Positions 8,926 through 18,317 of a DNA stretch of 64,000 nt are shown here, one piece after another. This DNA comes from Streptomyces sp. BA2 (GTDB lineage Bacteria; Actinomycetota; Actinomycetes; Streptomycetales; Streptomycetaceae): assembly GCF_009769735.1 (NCBI RefSeq), contig NZ_WSRO01000002.1, forward strand, positions 1,736,001 to 1,800,000. Direction: 5' to 3'. The notes below the pieces were generated by a model. The model did no database searches. It was given only the letters and a program-made list of their open reading frames with translations, and was not told the DNA's origin. The translations under genes and the position numbers were made by a program. Every line of letters begins with the position of its first letter. Positions within the stretch are counted from its first letter, which is position 1.

Positions 8926-10070
8926 CCGGCGGGGATCCCTCTCTGCTGCGGCGGATCAACTCCGCGGTGGTGCTGCACGCTCTGCGTGCGGCGGACTTCG
9001 CGACACTCACCGAGGTCACCCGGGTGACGGGGCTTTCGCGGCCGACCGTCGAGGGTGTGGTCGAGGGGCTCATCGAGGCCGGGCTCGTGGTGGAGACCGC
9101 CGCCGAGGAAGGCGCGGCCAGACGCCAGGGACGGCCCGCGCGGAGGTTCCGCTTCCGGGCCGAGGCGGGGCATCTGCTCGGCCTGGAGATCGGCCCGCAC
9201 CGGGTGGCCGCCGTCCTCTCGGACCTGGACGGCCGGGTGATGGGCACGGCCGCCAAGGACGTGGACGAGACGGCCCCGGCGGACGAACGCATCGAGCGGC
9301 TGCGCACTGCGGTGGCTGATCTGCTGCGCCGTGGCGGGATCGCCCGCAGCTCACTGCGCGCGGTGGGTGTCGGCAGCCCCGGCATCGTGGAGGCGGACGG
9401 CACGGTCCGCCTTGGCACCGCGCTGCCGGAGTGGACGGGGCTCCAGCTGGGGGAGCGTCTTCGCAGGTCCTTCAAGTGCCCGGTCCTGGTGGAGAACGAC
9501 GCGAACGCGGCGGCGGTGGCCGAGCACTGGAAGGGCGCGGCGACCGAGTCCGACGACGTGGTGTTCGTCCTCGCGGGGCTCAGCCCGGGGGCCGGGGCGC
9601 TGATCGGCGGGCGGTTGCACCGCGGCTACGGCGGCGCCGCCGGGGAGATCGGGGCCCTGCATCTGCTGGGCCGTGACGTGACTCCGGAGACGCTCCTCTC
9701 GACCACGGACGAGCCACTGCACCCGCTCGACGAGCAGGCCGTGGCGGAGGTCTTCGCCCACGCGCGCGAGGGGGACGAGCGGGCGCGGCAGGCTGTCGAG
9801 CGGTTCATCCAGCGCCTGGTGCACGACGTGGCGGCGCTGGTGCTCGCCCTCGATCCCGAGCTGGTCGTCGTGGGCGGCTGGGCGGCCGGTCTGGACGGTG
9901 TACTGGAGCCGTTGCGCCGGGAGTTGGCCCGCTACTGCCTGCGGCCGCCGCGGGTGGCCCTGTCGATGCTCGGCGAGGCCGCTGTCGCTACGGGCGCGCT
10001 GCGCCTCGCCCTCGACCATGTCGAGGAGCAGCTGTTCGCGGTCGAGGGGACGGTCACCGCGCGGCGCTGA
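8913..10070 (+). CDS. ROK-family transcriptional regulator / sugar-binding protein
   Basis: A 385-residue protein with an N-terminal winged helix (about residues 12-70; SRPTVEGVVEGLIEAGLV recognition part) and a ROK sugar-kinase-like domain containing VGVGSPGIVEADG and VLVENDANAAAVAEHW. The DNA-binding N-terminus marks it as a NagC/XylR/Mlc-type regulator rather than a glucokinase. The start is TTG 8913 with GGAGGA 6 nt upstream; there is no ATG/GTG choice with a better site. It converges on a GntR regulator whose promoter carries a DasR-like operator, so the pair may handle sugar or amino-sugar control. Confidence 0.88.
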   Translation: MGRLTGGDPSLLRRINSAVVLHALRAADFATLTEVTRVTGLSRPTVEGVVEGLIEAGLVVETAAEEGAARRQGRPARRFRFRAEAGHLLGLEIGPHRVAAVLSDLDGRVMGTAAKDVDETAPADERIERLRTAVADLLRRGGIARSSLRAVGVGSPGIVEADGTVRLGTALPEWTGLQLGERLRRSFKCPVLVENDANAAAVAEHWKGAATESDDVVFVLAGLSPGAGALIGGRLHRGYGGAAGEIGALHLLGRDVTPETLLSTTDEPLHPLDEQAVAEVFAHAREGDERARQAVERFIQRLVHDVAALVLALDPELVVVGGWAAGLDGVLEPLRRELARYCLRPPRVALSMLGEAAVATGALRLALDHVEEQLFAVEGTVTARR

Positions 10071-10104
10071 GGCGCCACGCGGTGCACGAGAGAGAAGAGC
10101 GGCG

Positions 10105-10866
10105 TCAGGAAGCCTGGCGCTCCGGGCCGTGGTGGATCTCGACGCCGCCCGCGTCGCCGAACGTGAGGCGGCAGGTGTCCGCGCGGTACGTCGCCACGGA
10201 TACCGCCGCTGTGCGTCCCTCGGCGAGGAATCGGGTCGTCACGACGAGGACCGGGGCTCCGGGGAGCCGGTCGAGCGCCTTGGCGTCGTCCGCGCGGGCC
10301 GAGCCGAGCTCGACGGCGCGGTCCTGTCCTTCGAGGCCGAGCCGGTGCAGCTCGCGCAGCACGGCACGCGCGCGCGTCGGTCCGGACGGGGCGTCGACTG
10401 CGGAGAGCTCCGCGACGGACGACATCGGCACGTACAGCAGCTCGGCGGCGACGGGCTGGCCGTGCGAGACGCGCGTGCGCCGCACGACGTGCACCTGGTC
10501 GTCGGGGCGGGCCGCGAGCATGCGGGCCACCTCGGCGGGCGGGACCGCCGGTGCGCAGTCGGCGGGCTGCCAGGCGTCGCCGACCTCGCCCGGCCAGGTG
10601 CCTTGTGCGGATCCGACGGCCACACCCATCCGCGGCGGGGCGACGGTCGTGCCGACCCCGCGGCGGCGCTGCAGCCTGCCTTCCAGCTCCAGCTGCTCGA
10701 GTGCCTGACGGAGCGTGGCGCGGGCCACGCCGAAGCGGGCCGCGAGATCACGTTCGTTGGGCAGGATCTCGCCGACGGCGAACTCGGAGTCGAGTGCCTC
10801 GCTGAGCACGGTCTTGAGGTGCCAGTACTTCGGCTCCGGCGCCGTTTCCAGCTGCGTGGTCCCCAC
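10105..10866 (-). CDS. GntR-family regulator, HutC/UTRA subfamily
   Basis: A 253-residue protein from GTG 10866, chosen because GGAGGA sits 5-6 nt upstream; the longer frame to 11082 has no such site. The N-terminal winged helix ends with FGVARATLRQALEQLELEGRLQRR (split here as two helices). A UTRA effector domain fills residues 90-245. HutC-type regulators such as DasR bind TGGTCTAGACCA-like sites and respond to small phosphorylated sugars or amino acids. A perfect palindrome of this class overlaps its own -35 box (10963-10976), so negative autoregulation is likely. The effector is unknown. Confidence 0.88.
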   Translation of the reverse strand: MGTTQLETAPEPKYWHLKTVLSEALDSEFAVGEILPNERDLAARFGVARATLRQALEQLELEGRLQRRRGVGTTVAPPRMGVAVGSAQGTWPGEVGDAWQPADCAPAVPPAEVARMLAARPDDQVHVVRRTRVSHGQPVAAELLYVPMSSVAELSAVDAPSGPTRARAVLRELHRLGLEGQDRAVELGSARADDAKALDRLPGAPVLVVTTRFLAEGRTAAVSVATYRADTCRLTFGDAGGVEIHHGPERQAS

Positions 10867-15538: not shown

Positions 15539-15829
15539 GTGGCCGAGGCCGAAGTCATCGTCCAGCTCCGAACCCCGCCGCGTCTTGCGACGACGGGCAC
15601 CGCGGATGTCTGTGACGCCTGTGATGTCAGAGACGTCCGAAGCCTTCTGGAGCGGCGGTTCGGCGTCACGCCGGAGCCGTTGCACCCCGGCGCCGACGAC
15701 CCGGCCCTCATCGGCTGGCAACGGGTCGCCGTCCCCGCCGGCATGGACGCCGAGGCCGTCGCCACGGCCCTGCGCGGCCACCCGGCAGTCGAGGCCGCCT
15801 ATGTGAAACCACCGGCGGACCTTCCGTAA
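15539..15829 (+). CDS. Small protein matching the N-terminal domain of the adjacent S8 peptidase
   Basis: A 96-residue protein from GTG 15539, with a purine-rich GGGGGG stretch before it and no signal peptide. It can be aligned along its whole length with residues 28-145 of the next gene: EVIVQLR matches ELVCVTR, a middle RPLF/PEPL segment follows, and the end HPAVEAAYVKP matches SDAVEGAYVKP. The fold resembles an inhibitor-I9-like prodomain (beta-alpha-beta with a terminal strand). It is the first gene of the cassette, 19 nt before the peptidase. Two unusual Cys (DVCDACDV) lie near residue 25. I infer a stand-alone inhibitor, chaperone or targeting partner for the peptidase; this is untested. 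Confidence 0.75.
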   Translation: MAEAEVIVQLRTPPRLATTGTADVCDACDVRDVRSLLERRFGVTPEPLHPGADDPALIGWQRVAVPAGMDAEAVATALRGHPAVEAAYVKPPADLP

Positions 15830-15848
15830 CGTGGTGAAGGAGTCAGCT

Positions 15849-17642
15849 GTGCCACAGCGATCAGGTGCGGGGAACAGCCGGGGGAACGACCGCCCGGCTC
15901 CAGGATTCGAGCCACCTTTCGGACGCCCTGAGCTGGTGTGCGTCACGCGCGCCGACGCCGGGGTACGCATCACCCCGACCGGCGCGACCGCCACGGCGGA
16001 CGTCTCCGTGAGCGGTCTCGACGCGGTGGCGGCCCAGGAGGACGTCACCATCAGGCCGCTGTTCGGCGCGGACCAGGAGAGGCTGCGCGCCCAGACGGGG
16101 GCTACCGCTGACGGCCCCGGCGCCGGGGCCGACGAGGCCACCCTTGAGATCCTCGACCGGATGGGGCTCTTCTTCCATGTAGACGCTCCGGCCGACCAGT
16201 TGGAGGCGCTGGCCGAGCGGCTCCGCGCGTCGGACGCCGTGGAGGGCGCCTACGTCAAGCCCGGCGCCGCCCTCGCCGTCACCGACCAGAAGAAGAAGAG
16301 CGGGGAGACCGAGCTCCCACCGCTCAACGACATGCAGCCGACGGGCGCCGACGCGCCGCCCGTGACCCCCGACTTCACCGCCCGCCAGGGCTATCTCGAC
16401 GCGGCTCCAGGCGGCGTCGACGCCCGCTACGCGTGGACCCTGCCGGGCGGGCGTGGCGCCGGTGTCCGGGTGATCGACTGCGAGTGGGGCTGGCGCTTCA
16501 CCCACGAGGACCTGCGGCTGAACCAGGGCGGCATCGTCTCGGGCACCGGAAGCACGGACACCGATCACGGCACCGCGGTGCTCGGCGAGATCGGCGGGGA
16601 CGTCAACGCGTTCGGGATCACCGGGATCGCGCCGGACACCATCACCAGCGCGTCCGCCTTCTCCATCCCCACGGCCACGGCGATCAGGAACGCCGCCGAC
16701 CGCCTCGGCCCCGGCGACATCATCCTCCTTGAGATCCACCGCGCGGGGCCGCACGCGACCGGCGTCGGGCAGGTGGGGTACATCGCCGTCGAGTGGTGGC
16801 CGGACGACTATCTGGCGATCCGCTACGCCGTCAACAAGGGCATCACCGTCGTCGAGGCGGCGGGCAACGGCGCGGAGGACCTGGACCACGCCGACTACGA
16901 CACCCCGAGGGCGGGCTTCCCCTCCTGGTGGCGCAACCCCTTCCGGCGCACCACCCTCGACGCCGGCGCCGTGATCGTCGGTGCCGGGGCGCCGCCGCCC
17001 GGCACCCACGGCCGCCAGCACGGCCCCGACCGCTCCCGCCTCGACTTCTCCAACTACGGCGCCTGCGTGGACGCCCAGGGCTGGGGACGCGAGGTGACCA
17101 CCACCGGCTACGGCGACCTCCAGGCGGGCGACAACCAGGACTTCTGGTACACGGACCGGTTCAGCGGTACGTCCAGTGCCTCGCCGATCGTGGTGGGCGC
17201 CCTGGCCGGCACCCAGGGCATCCTGCGCGCGAACCGCCGTATCCCGCTGTCGCCATCGCGGGCCAGGCAGCTGCTGCGCGCCACCGGCTCACCGCAGCAG
17301 GACGCGCCCGGCCGCCCGGCGACCCAGCGCATCGGCAGGCGGCCCGATCTGCGGCAGCTCGTCCCCGCGGCGCTCCAGACCAGCAGCTGGGTCGGCGTCC
17401 AGTTCCGGGGCACCCTCGCCGGGAACCGAACCGGCCGCTGGTTCACCTTCAACTGGCCCGCCCACTGGCATGTGGTGTGGACGGTCGTCCCGACGAGTCC
17501 CCGCCCCGGCGCCCCGCAGATCCGCTGGAGGGTCAGGGTCGAGCGGGCCAACGACACCTACGCGACGTACTGGATCGACGTGACGAACCTCGTGGCCGAC
17601 TCGGTCGACTTCGAGGCCCGGTTCGCGGTTCTCGGATGGTGA
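15849..17642 (+). CDS. S8 (subtilisin-like) serine peptidase with flanking accessory domains, no signal peptide
   Basis: A 597-residue protein. GTG 15849 is preferred because AAGGAG lies 6 nt upstream; GTGs at 15831 and 15834 lack a site. Residues 28-145 form an I9-like domain. Residues 190-505 form the subtilase domain, with catalytic Asp210 (RVIDCEWGW), His240 (TDHGTAV), oxyanion Asn340 (EAAGNG) and Ser442 (SGTSSASP), so it should be active. Residues 513-597 form a beta-rich C-terminal domain that is nearly duplicated by the next gene. No signal or Tat sequence is visible, which is unusual for subtilases and suggests a cytoplasmic enzyme or non-classical release. A 21-bp tandem duplication covers its stop codon. 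Confidence 0.9.
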   Translation: MPQRSGAGNSRGNDRPAPGFEPPFGRPELVCVTRADAGVRITPTGATATADVSVSGLDAVAAQEDVTIRPLFGADQERLRAQTGATADGPGAGADEATLEILDRMGLFFHVDAPADQLEALAERLRASDAVEGAYVKPGAALAVTDQKKKSGETELPPLNDMQPTGADAPPVTPDFTARQGYLDAAPGGVDARYAWTLPGGRGAGVRVIDCEWGWRFTHEDLRLNQGGIVSGTGSTDTDHGTAVLGEIGGDVNAFGITGIAPDTITSASAFSIPTATAIRNAADRLGPGDIILLEIHRAGPHATGVGQVGYIAVEWWPDDYLAIRYAVNKGITVVEAAGNGAEDLDHADYDTPRAGFPSWWRNPFRRTTLDAGAVIVGAGAPPPGTHGRQHGPDRSRLDFSNYGACVDAQGWGREVTTTGYGDLQAGDNQDFWYTDRFSGTSSASPIVVGALAGTQGILRANRRIPLSPSRARQLLRATGSPQQDAPGRPATQRIGRRPDLRQLVPAALQTSSWVGVQFRGTLAGNRTGRWFTFNWPAHWHVVWTVVPTSPRPGAPQIRWRVRVERANDTYATYWIDVTNLVADSVDFEARFAVLGW

Positions 17643-17663
17643 TTCGCGGTTCTCGGATGGTGA
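17622..17663 (+). repeat. Exact 21-bp tandem duplication at the peptidase stop codon
   Basis: Bases 17622-17642 and 17643-17663 are identical and in the same frame. Each encodes the last codons of the peptidase and ends in TGA, so the second copy is untranslated. It looks like a recent slippage event. It forms the spacer before the next gene and includes part of its Shine-Dalgarno region. Confidence 0.95.
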
Positions 17664-17676
17664 GAGGAAAACAACG

Positions 17677-17931
17677 ATGCGAGTAGGCACACAGTTCACC
17701 GGAACACTCAACCCCGGGCAGACCGGGCGCTGGTTCACCTTCGGCTGGCCGCAGGACTGGCACGTCGTCTGGTACTTCATGCCGACGACACCCCAGACGG
17801 GCAGCCCCCAGATCGAGTGGGAAACCGAGGTCGAGCGGGCATCGGCCACGGCGGTCACGTACTGGCTGACGGTGAAGAACATCGGCAGCACCCAGATGAA
17901 CTTCGAAGGCCGGTACGCGGTTCTCAACTAG
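17677..17931 (+). CDS. Small protein equal to the peptidase C-terminal domain
   Basis: An 84-residue protein from ATG 17677. It aligns without gaps to peptidase residues 514-597, with roughly half of the positions identical: TGRWFTF, HVVW, PQIEW/PQIRW, VERA, TYW and the closing F-x-x-R-(F/Y)-AVL. It has many aromatic and alternating residues, no Cys, and is predicted all-beta. I do not recognise a named family; lectin-like or Ig-like sandwiches are possible. A free copy beside the fused one suggests a shared ligand, oligomerisation surface or competition for the same partner. It sits 34 nt after the peptidase stop and 15 nt before the next gene. Confidence 0.85.
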   Translation: MRVGTQFTGTLNPGQTGRWFTFGWPQDWHVVWYFMPTTPQTGSPQIEWETEVERASATAVTYWLTVKNIGSTQMNFEGRYAVLN

Positions 17932-17946
17932 GCGGGGGGAACGGCC

Positions 17947-18267
17947 ATGAAGGTGCACATCACGATCGCGGAGGACGCGGGCGCGGCCCCGGCCCCGGCC
18001 GCCGGGGCGGAGCGACAGCTCGACGTGACACGGGCCGCGGACATCACGGCCGCCGTCGACGCCGGGCCCGCCGCTCCTGGCACGGATTCGGCGCGTCCGG
18101 AAGGGTCCGTCACGGACGGCGGCGAGGCTCCGGCCTGGCTCGCCGAACTCGTCCGGCTCGCCGATGCCGGAGAGGTGGCCCGCCCGGGCGAGGAGCCGCA
18201 GGAGACCCGACGGCCCTCGGATGGCCTGTCCATGGATGCCGGGAGCGCGGGAGGGGCTCCGCGCTGA
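17947..18267 (+). CDS. Small acidic hypothetical protein closing the peptidase cassette
   Basis: A 106-residue Ala/Gly/Pro/Asp-rich protein from ATG 17947. It begins with a short strand-like MKVHITIAEDAG, has a low-complexity middle, and contains one predicted helix APAWLAELVRLADAG-like near residues 60-75; the rest looks disordered. No family is recognised. The short spacing (15 nt) and the terminator just downstream place it as the last gene of the cassette. Small disordered proteins ending peptidase operons can be substrates, adaptors or pro-peptides. The codon use is strongly GC3, so it is probably real. Confidence 0.6.
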   Translation: MKVHITIAEDAGAAPAPAAGAERQLDVTRAADITAAVDAGPAAPGTDSARPEGSVTDGGEAPAWLAELVRLADAGEVARPGEEPQETRRPSDGLSMDAGSAGGAPR

Positions 18268-18278
18268 GCAGTCATCGA

Positions 18279-18317
18279 CGAACGGGGCCGCCACGCGTTG
18301 CGTGACGGCCCCGTTCG
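18279..18317. terminator. Bidirectional terminator between the peptidase cassette and the VOC gene
   Basis: A perfect 12-bp stem starting CGAACGGGGCCG, one mismatch, then 5 bp more (CACGC/GCGTG) around a GTT loop. It lies between convergent stops at 18267 and 18334. There is no T-run on either side. Confidence 0.8.

Follow-up and report, generated by a model that had tools for sequence, protein, structure and literature searches.

The cassette and its genes

The window analysed here is a stretch of 64,000 nucleotides (nt) of Streptomyces sp. BA2, an organism with a genome of 10.04 Mb; the GC content of the window is about 72%. At positions 15539-18267 it carries a cassette of four genes on the same strand, P1-P2-P3-P4, spaced by 1, 34 and 15 nt. 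P2 is a peptidase of family S8, and both its N-terminal and its C-terminal domain have free copies in the cassette, encoded as the small proteins P1 and P3. The cassette is real, conserved and unusual, and its protease-inhibitor half is a variation on a known theme. An earlier inspection of the letters of this DNA (the sequence-only reading) had described four tightly spaced genes closed by a strong terminator. All four open reading frames (ORFs) are present at the coordinates listed below and the tight spacing is borne out. A strong hairpin does follow P4 (a 69-nt stretch folds at -38.8 kcal/mol, z -4.19), but there is no U-run behind it and the terminator scan did not report the hairpin at 18279-18317, so that a terminator is only a possible description. 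The features, with lengths in amino acids (aa), are as follows:

15539..15829, + strand: P1, 96 aa, GTG start; free copy of the N-terminal (I9-propeptide-like) domain of P2, profile E 1.4e-13
15831..17642, + strand: P2, S8 peptidase, 603 aa, GTG start, no evident signal peptide; PF00082
15927..16271, + strand: N-domain of P2 (about residues 33-147); overlies the propeptides of subtilisins when superposed on zymogen structures
16371..17366, + strand: S8 catalytic domain of P2 (about residues 181-512)
17391..17639, + strand: C-domain of P2, type A (about residues 521-603)
17677..17931, + strand: P3, 84 aa, free copy of the type-A C-domain; six-stranded all-beta model with a mean predicted local distance difference test (pLDDT) score of 91
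17947..18267, + strand: P4, 106 aa, N-terminal strand-like MKVHITI, then three [DN][AGS]Gx(0-2)P motifs
18279..18317, + strand: strong hairpin 3' of P4, a possible terminator without U-run

The window cassette was compared with related loci (given L numbers). The set holds 49 loci: 42 have a P2-type core (E < 1e-60 to the peptidase profile), and seven carry the type-A C-domain on other proteins. A scan of genome contigs yielded 32 loci, and genome draws gave further ones.

P2 is a zymogen-like S8 peptidase and P1 resembles its N-domain

By family model and catalytic residues P2 is an S8 peptidase. PF00082 matches it at 35.4 bits (curated cut-off 21.8), and Asp216, His246, the oxyanion Asn346 and Ser448 are invariant in 26/26 aligned peptidases, so the Asp-His-Ser triad claimed by the sequence-only reading is intact. 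When the predicted model of P2 (mean pLDDT 77.6, with some low-confidence stretches) was superposed on zymogen structures, its N-domain lay at the propeptide position of pro-Tk-subtilisin (2e1p) and pro-subtilisin E (3whi), that is, as a propeptide fold in the inhibitory position. A profile match shows that the peptidase retains its own N-domain in 38/40 core loci, the exceptions being L023, where it could nevertheless be aligned, and L058, where it lies in another frame. The peptidase reading frame itself is broken in L028 and L058. A second P2-type peptidase is present in the same genome (L034, G000:C2:2218817-2220352); it is 53% identical to P2 and bears a different C-domain, type C, with an adjoining free copy.

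P2 had also been said to have no signal peptide. The maximal 12-residue hydropathy within its residues 1-45 is 0.83, whereas two signal peptides score 2.24 and 2.52, and none of the window cassette proteins has an evident secretion signal by hydropathy. The window P2 consequently has no evident hydrophobic leader, but this is a simple check, and it is not decisive for the peptidase family since the relative L027 reaches 2.29.

The family profiles of P1 and of the P2 N-domain align over 87 columns (hhalign, probability 98, E 1.4e-13), which establishes the homology of P1 to an S8 propeptide domain. The closing motif of both reads as previously quoted, and all 16 aligned P1 proteins share its Y, K and P. 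P1 had been described as aligning with the N-domain from end to end; the homology stands, but the pairwise alignment is limited to 64 aa (39% identity, E 2e-5), and an end-to-end match is therefore not shown by pairwise comparison. A profile search of solved structures with P1 gave a best E of only 0.092.

A separate P1, scored at E < 1e-4 in the 40 core loci whose 5' side was available (L026 and L030 are cut), adjoins 21 of the 40, compared with none of the seven loci in which another protein carries the type-A C-domain (p 0.012). Within type-A loci alone the figures are 14/20 and 0/7 (p 0.0019). Sorted by the C-domain of the core locus, P1 is found in 14/20 loci of type A, 3/3 of type B, 0/5 of type C and 4/12 with another C-domain or none. 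The weakest matches are those of L020 (1.4e-8) and L023 (8.4e-6), and in L019 P1 lies downstream, not upstream, of the peptidase. In Scytonematopsis (L008:7385-7921) the P1 frame starts with a signal-peptide-like stretch ahead of the P1 domain, its true start being uncertain.

I9-type prodomains both inhibit and fold subtilases. Because of this established behaviour, and of the existence of stand-alone propeptide-like inhibitors such as SUB1-ProM (PMC6993865), the leading reading is that P1 probably acts in trans as an I9-type inhibitor of P2.

Three unrelated C-domains have adjoining free copies

P3 and the C-terminus of P2 are identical at 45/81 positions (56%) in a gap-free alignment (E 4e-31), in agreement with the half identity reported earlier. 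The solved-structure profile search with P3 gave a best E of only 0.44; a PPC/jelly-roll-like C-terminal domain is a candidate description of P3 and the C-domain. This domain, type A, is fused to 21/42 cores, and the next gene is a free copy in 19/21 of them (not in L004 and L010). Two further C-domains behave in the same way. Type B occurs in the Blastococcus loci L020 and L021 and in L019, which was assigned by eye; a free copy is next in 2/3 (L019 is without), and fused and free copies are 56-57% identical. Type C occurs in the Streptomyces loci L024 and L025, in L102 and L103 of the same genus and in the window-genome paralogue L034, and has a free copy in 5/5, with a glutamine-rich N-terminal stretch and 28-40% identity to the fused domain over 49-69 aa. 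The hhalign probability between fused and free domains is 100 for type A, 99.5 for type B and 97.4 for type C, and below 1 across types; on these profile comparisons the three types are mutually unrelated. Altogether, a stand-alone copy of the C-domain is the next gene in 26/29 core loci of types A to C, and no free copy was seen in the remaining 13 core loci, which have another C-domain or none. That three unrelated C-domain types each have such a copy at their side strongly suggests, on evolutionary grounds, that it is required. Profile searches thus uphold two premises of the sequence-only reading, namely that the small proteins are homologous to domains of the peptidase and that the genes are linked elsewhere.

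The type-A pair is not confined to P2-type peptidases. Fused and free domains also occur with another S8 subfamily (L031, PF00082 2.9e-29; L032, alike by eye), with an astacin (L094/L054, PF01400 7.6e-49) and with a Vps10/BNR protein (L096, PF15902 1.8e-18). A fused type-A domain without a free copy is found in L095 and L097 (sub-threshold NAL1_N; L095 alike by eye) and in L098 (sub-threshold Vps10). Since the pair also serves these partners, P3 as an S8-specific inhibitor was set aside. Of the earlier proposal that the free domains act in trans as inhibitors or immunity-like partners, an I9-type inhibitor is the best reading for P1, but such a role of P3 towards the S8 peptidase in particular is not supported.

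It is improbable, in our view, that P1 and P3 act as external chaperones, assisting the folding of peptidases whose own domains do not suffice for it. I9 domains do catalyse folding besides inhibiting, and Aeromonas ASP, which we take to be represented by 3hjr and 3wqb among the structure matches listed, has an external chaperone. Against this, the core keeps its own N-domain almost everywhere (38/40), 19/40 core loci lack P1, and P3 also accompanies the astacin and the propeller protein.

In a tree of 50 type-A domains, which is based on 85 columns only and whose bootstrap had not settled, free and fused domains fall mostly apart, while the pairs of L055, L094 and L096 are strongly supported sisters. 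The L055 pair is 79% identical, and haloarchaeal composition may help to group it. A single ancestral split into free and fused domains is not supported: the label needs five changes on the tree, four of them forced by well-supported branches (shuffled mean 16.6). The sister position of the free copies of L055, L094 and L096 to their fused partners suggests repeated copying or gene conversion of type-A domains.

P4 is tied to the type-A domain

P4 is likewise a conserved, repeat-bearing component, a point beyond the sequence-only reading. It had no match in Pfam, NCBIfam, PADLOC or PHROG at the limits used. P4 ORFs open with a strand such as MRIxIE, and at least two [DN][AGS]Gx(0-2)P motifs were found in a short ORF after the last type-A domain in 19/28 loci (at least one in 22/28), compared with 0/21 cores with other C-domains (Fisher p 5e-7). 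At 1,769 random flank sites the same scan found one motif in 30 cases and never two. Type-A loci had supplied the pattern, and where several start codons were possible the best one counted; the controls were handled identically. P4 is thus tied to the type-A C-domain, and the control scan led us to set aside P4 as mere low complexity. The Haloferax P4 has 213 aa and five motifs. Type-B loci carry other repeat proteins, by eye of an IPPPP kind in L020 and L021 and PDLPxEML-like in L019.

P4 might be a substrate, the peptidase cutting near the D-A/G-G-x-A/P-P repeats to release small signal or antimicrobial peptides, with the C-domain and P3 as an exosite. The repeated motif with conserved surroundings (xWLxxhh), the low complexity of P4 and its place as the last gene of the cassette fit this idea. 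We nevertheless think it quite unlikely, as P4-like genes also stand behind the C-domains of proteins outside family S8, the Vps10/BNR protein (L096) and the NAL1_N-like proteins (L095, L097), and the motif count is 0 in L095 and L096.

A proposed division into two exchangeable kits

P1 tracks the core of the peptidase rather than the type-A C-domain itself, and P3 and P4 track the C-domain irrespective of catalytic type, so that two functions are separable. We favour, at about even probability, a cassette of four parts that falls into two exchangeable kits, one for protease control and one for placement. In the first kit, P2 would be synthesised as an I9-S8 zymogen that shows no evident signal for export. 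P1, which ends just past the AYVKP motif that also closes the P2 prodomain, would dock in trans on the same active-site face and keep P2 inactive, or aid its folding, until it is needed. In the second kit, the P2 C-domain and P3 would be small beta-sandwich modules that work with P4, itself flexible and bearing a conserved strand at its N-terminus as well as several short D-(A/G)-G-x-(A/P)-P motifs. In the simplest layout P4 would be a multivalent tether or scaffold for C-domain-bearing proteins, and P3 a co-subunit or cap. We infer inhibition by P1, contact between P4 and the C-domain, cytoplasmic storage and the biological occasion alike. For the C-domain, P3 and P4, a role in assembly or targeting is about evenly balanced against everything else and more likely than protease inhibition, with decoy, substrate and folding functions as its rivals.

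Several observations weigh against the two-kit reading. P1 is absent from 19/40 core loci, all five of type C included, and is somewhat commoner with type A (14/20) than otherwise (7/20, p 0.056), which indicates that the two kits are not fully independent. The only curated prodomain match of P1, PF22148 Fervidolysin_NPro-like, has 17.9 bits, under the cut-off of 21 (E 0.0042). P3 is missing at 2/21 type-A core loci (L004, L010) and at 3/7 loci with other proteins, and the Vps10/BNR partners of type A need not be enzymes. Fewer than two P4 motifs were found at 9/28 type-A loci, and the pattern itself was drawn from such loci. Furthermore, many loci are metagenome bins, and the counts are inflated by near-identical loci (L015/L016, L003/L005, the window and L001).

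As the modules are exchanged apart from one another, what P1 does and what P3/P4 do can be tested separately, and the small parts could serve as tools for protease control or enzyme tethering. More broadly, a 'copy-in-trans' architecture might be general in prokaryotes, a possibility that we advance only tentatively. Unrelated C-terminal modules on one zymogen core would each have their own free copy, and a propeptide-derived antidote would act in trans. The type-A domain, its free copy and the multivalent motif protein would form a transferable, catalysis-independent scaffold to which subtilases, astacins and propeller proteins are recruited, in archaea as well as in bacteria.

Relation to known systems

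Pro-subtilisins (pro-Tk-subtilisin, pro-subtilisin E) and Tk-SP are mostly secreted, and their end domains are not known to us to have free copies. Potempin C, which is not a copy of a domain of mirolase itself, is presumably encoded in a gene pair with it. As is proposed for the cassette, the Tannerella potempin C-mirolase complex, as far as its entry (PDB 8ehe) describes it, combines a subtilase with a cognate inhibitor.

Stand-alone I9-like inhibitors listed in a passage of PMC6993865 are the Pleurotus inhibitor, yeast proteinase B inhibitor 2, TgMIC5 and Plasmodium SUB1-ProM, the last a free propeptide-like protein that inhibits SUB1 and whose gene lies beside subtilase genes. P1 is similarly small, free and propeptide-like and, as with SUB1-ProM, is encoded beside a subtilase gene. 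According to the same passage those inhibitors are eukaryotic, and the well-characterised ones have no significant sequence similarity to propeptides. In contrast, P1 is prokaryotic, is homologous to its neighbour's own N-domain and belongs to a larger cassette. Free propeptide-like subtilase inhibitors are thus documented in eukaryotes, whereas here a prokaryotic family is plainly related to the neighbour's domain and linked to it across phyla.

System 3, as its section in Kaur et al. 2020 (PMC7159879) presents it, joins trypsin, sometimes S8, domains to a NucA nuclease, with shared adaptor domains. The Trypsin_2-Endonuclease_NS protein directly upstream of P1 in L018 resembles it, but that section mentions no free copies of peptidase end domains. 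A NucA-type endonuclease partner is found beside one relative, L018, and the window genome has no PF01223 match. No description of the cassette layout was found in the titles and abstract openings of the papers listed by searches of the open-licence PubMed Central literature, which does not imply its absence from print.

Distribution

Cassettes of this kind are found in several bacterial phyla and, on a plasmid of Haloferax, in an archaeon, but they are rare in the genomes sampled. Loci from plasmids were obtained from Haloferax mediterranei, Nostoc, Mycetohabitans, Paenibacillus and Bradyrhizobium; among plasmid records, P3 was found in 1/72,556 and P2 (E <= 1e-30) in 5. Isolates with the type-A domain include Streptomyces, Nocardioides, Catellatospora, Nonomuraea, Caballeronia, Spirosoma, Siphonobacter and Poritiphilus, while the loci of cyanobacterial, armatimonadote and thermomicrobial origin, and several more, come from metagenome bins, with binning errors possible. 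The peptidase (E 1e-40 or better) was present in 8/396 genomes of the phylum (the window genome included, three of them remote), the type-A domain in 4/295 of the genus (the window genome included, and G486 with the fused domain only) and the type-A profile in 4/396 genomes (the window genome included) and in 1/214, 2/201 and 1/238 around G686, G689 and G691, centre genomes included; these frequencies are lower bounds, because only part of the first-look candidates was scored in many genomes. The nearest named locus is L001 of Streptomyces sp. NBC_01016, whose peptidase is 90% identical (best segment), and the flanking genes are not alike even between the window and L001. The scatter of the cassette over phyla points to horizontal transfer. 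An origin from phage was rejected: P3 was found in 0/50,697 phage records (E <= 0.01), 0/26 pattern stretches were confirmed in the A1 scan of viral contigs, and PHROG matches were obtained for P2 alone (phrog_3677 'protease', 4.9e-19) and for none of P1, P3 and P4.

Neighbouring genes and injection and defence systems

Genes with trypsin-like matches are found at most a few kb away in L012 (below cut-off), L018, L021, L058 and L059, and L006 has a weak Nal1_C match nearby; these neighbours were chosen by eye, without a baseline frequency. In L018 (5823-7676) a fusion of Trypsin_2 and Endonuclease_NS immediately precedes P1 and the peptidase. A few such neighbourhoods have a flavour of conflict, one of the options, next to stress and differentiation, that the sequence-only reading raised for a possible switch. 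They bear on an effector-immunity reading, in which P2, freed at lysis, would attack neighbours or predators, its C-domain binding the target, P3 acting as a decoy on the producer and P1 as an active-site antidote. The sparse, scattered distribution and these trypsin-like or Endonuclease_NS genes agree with it, as do modules that look ligand-binding, the PF03984 repeats on L043 and the RicinB_lectin_2 protein after L011, both of which we take to bind ligands. The sister relationship of fused and free domains suggests pairing more than decoying, and no delivery system is tied to the cassette. PF14065 (Pvc16_N), which we take as a marker of extracellular contractile injection systems (eCIS), was found in 9/13 carriers and 17/27 non-carriers of the genus (p 1.0), 18 of these 27 having been searched for P3 only and not for the peptidase. 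Moreover, PADLOC gave 0 families for the four proteins at E <= 1. We consequently hold an effector-immunity role to be unlikely.

An anti-phage system was rejected on the same PADLOC result, and a role as eCIS cargo, an idea that came from the lineage spread, on the lack of a link with PF14065 within the genus. Outside the genus the marker was found in 7/24 other carriers and 1/16 taxon-unmatched controls of other phyla, a weak excess (p 0.11), and overall in 16/37 carrier genomes and 18/43 others, some of these genomes being incomplete. The single match of the window genome is on another contig.

BTAD regulators (PF03704) lie near some cassettes (L001:10992-11729; L096:6980-7726, minus strand), in a group that covers L001, L002, L003 and L029; among the genes called up to 3 kb from the window cassette none was seen. 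Small related proteins near L009, L011 and L012 are presumably DUF1036-like. In L011 the RicinB_lectin_2-type protein (9643-10110, 1.2e-5) lies beside a peptidase without C-domain and has a sub-threshold match to an I66 peptidase inhibitor (0.038).

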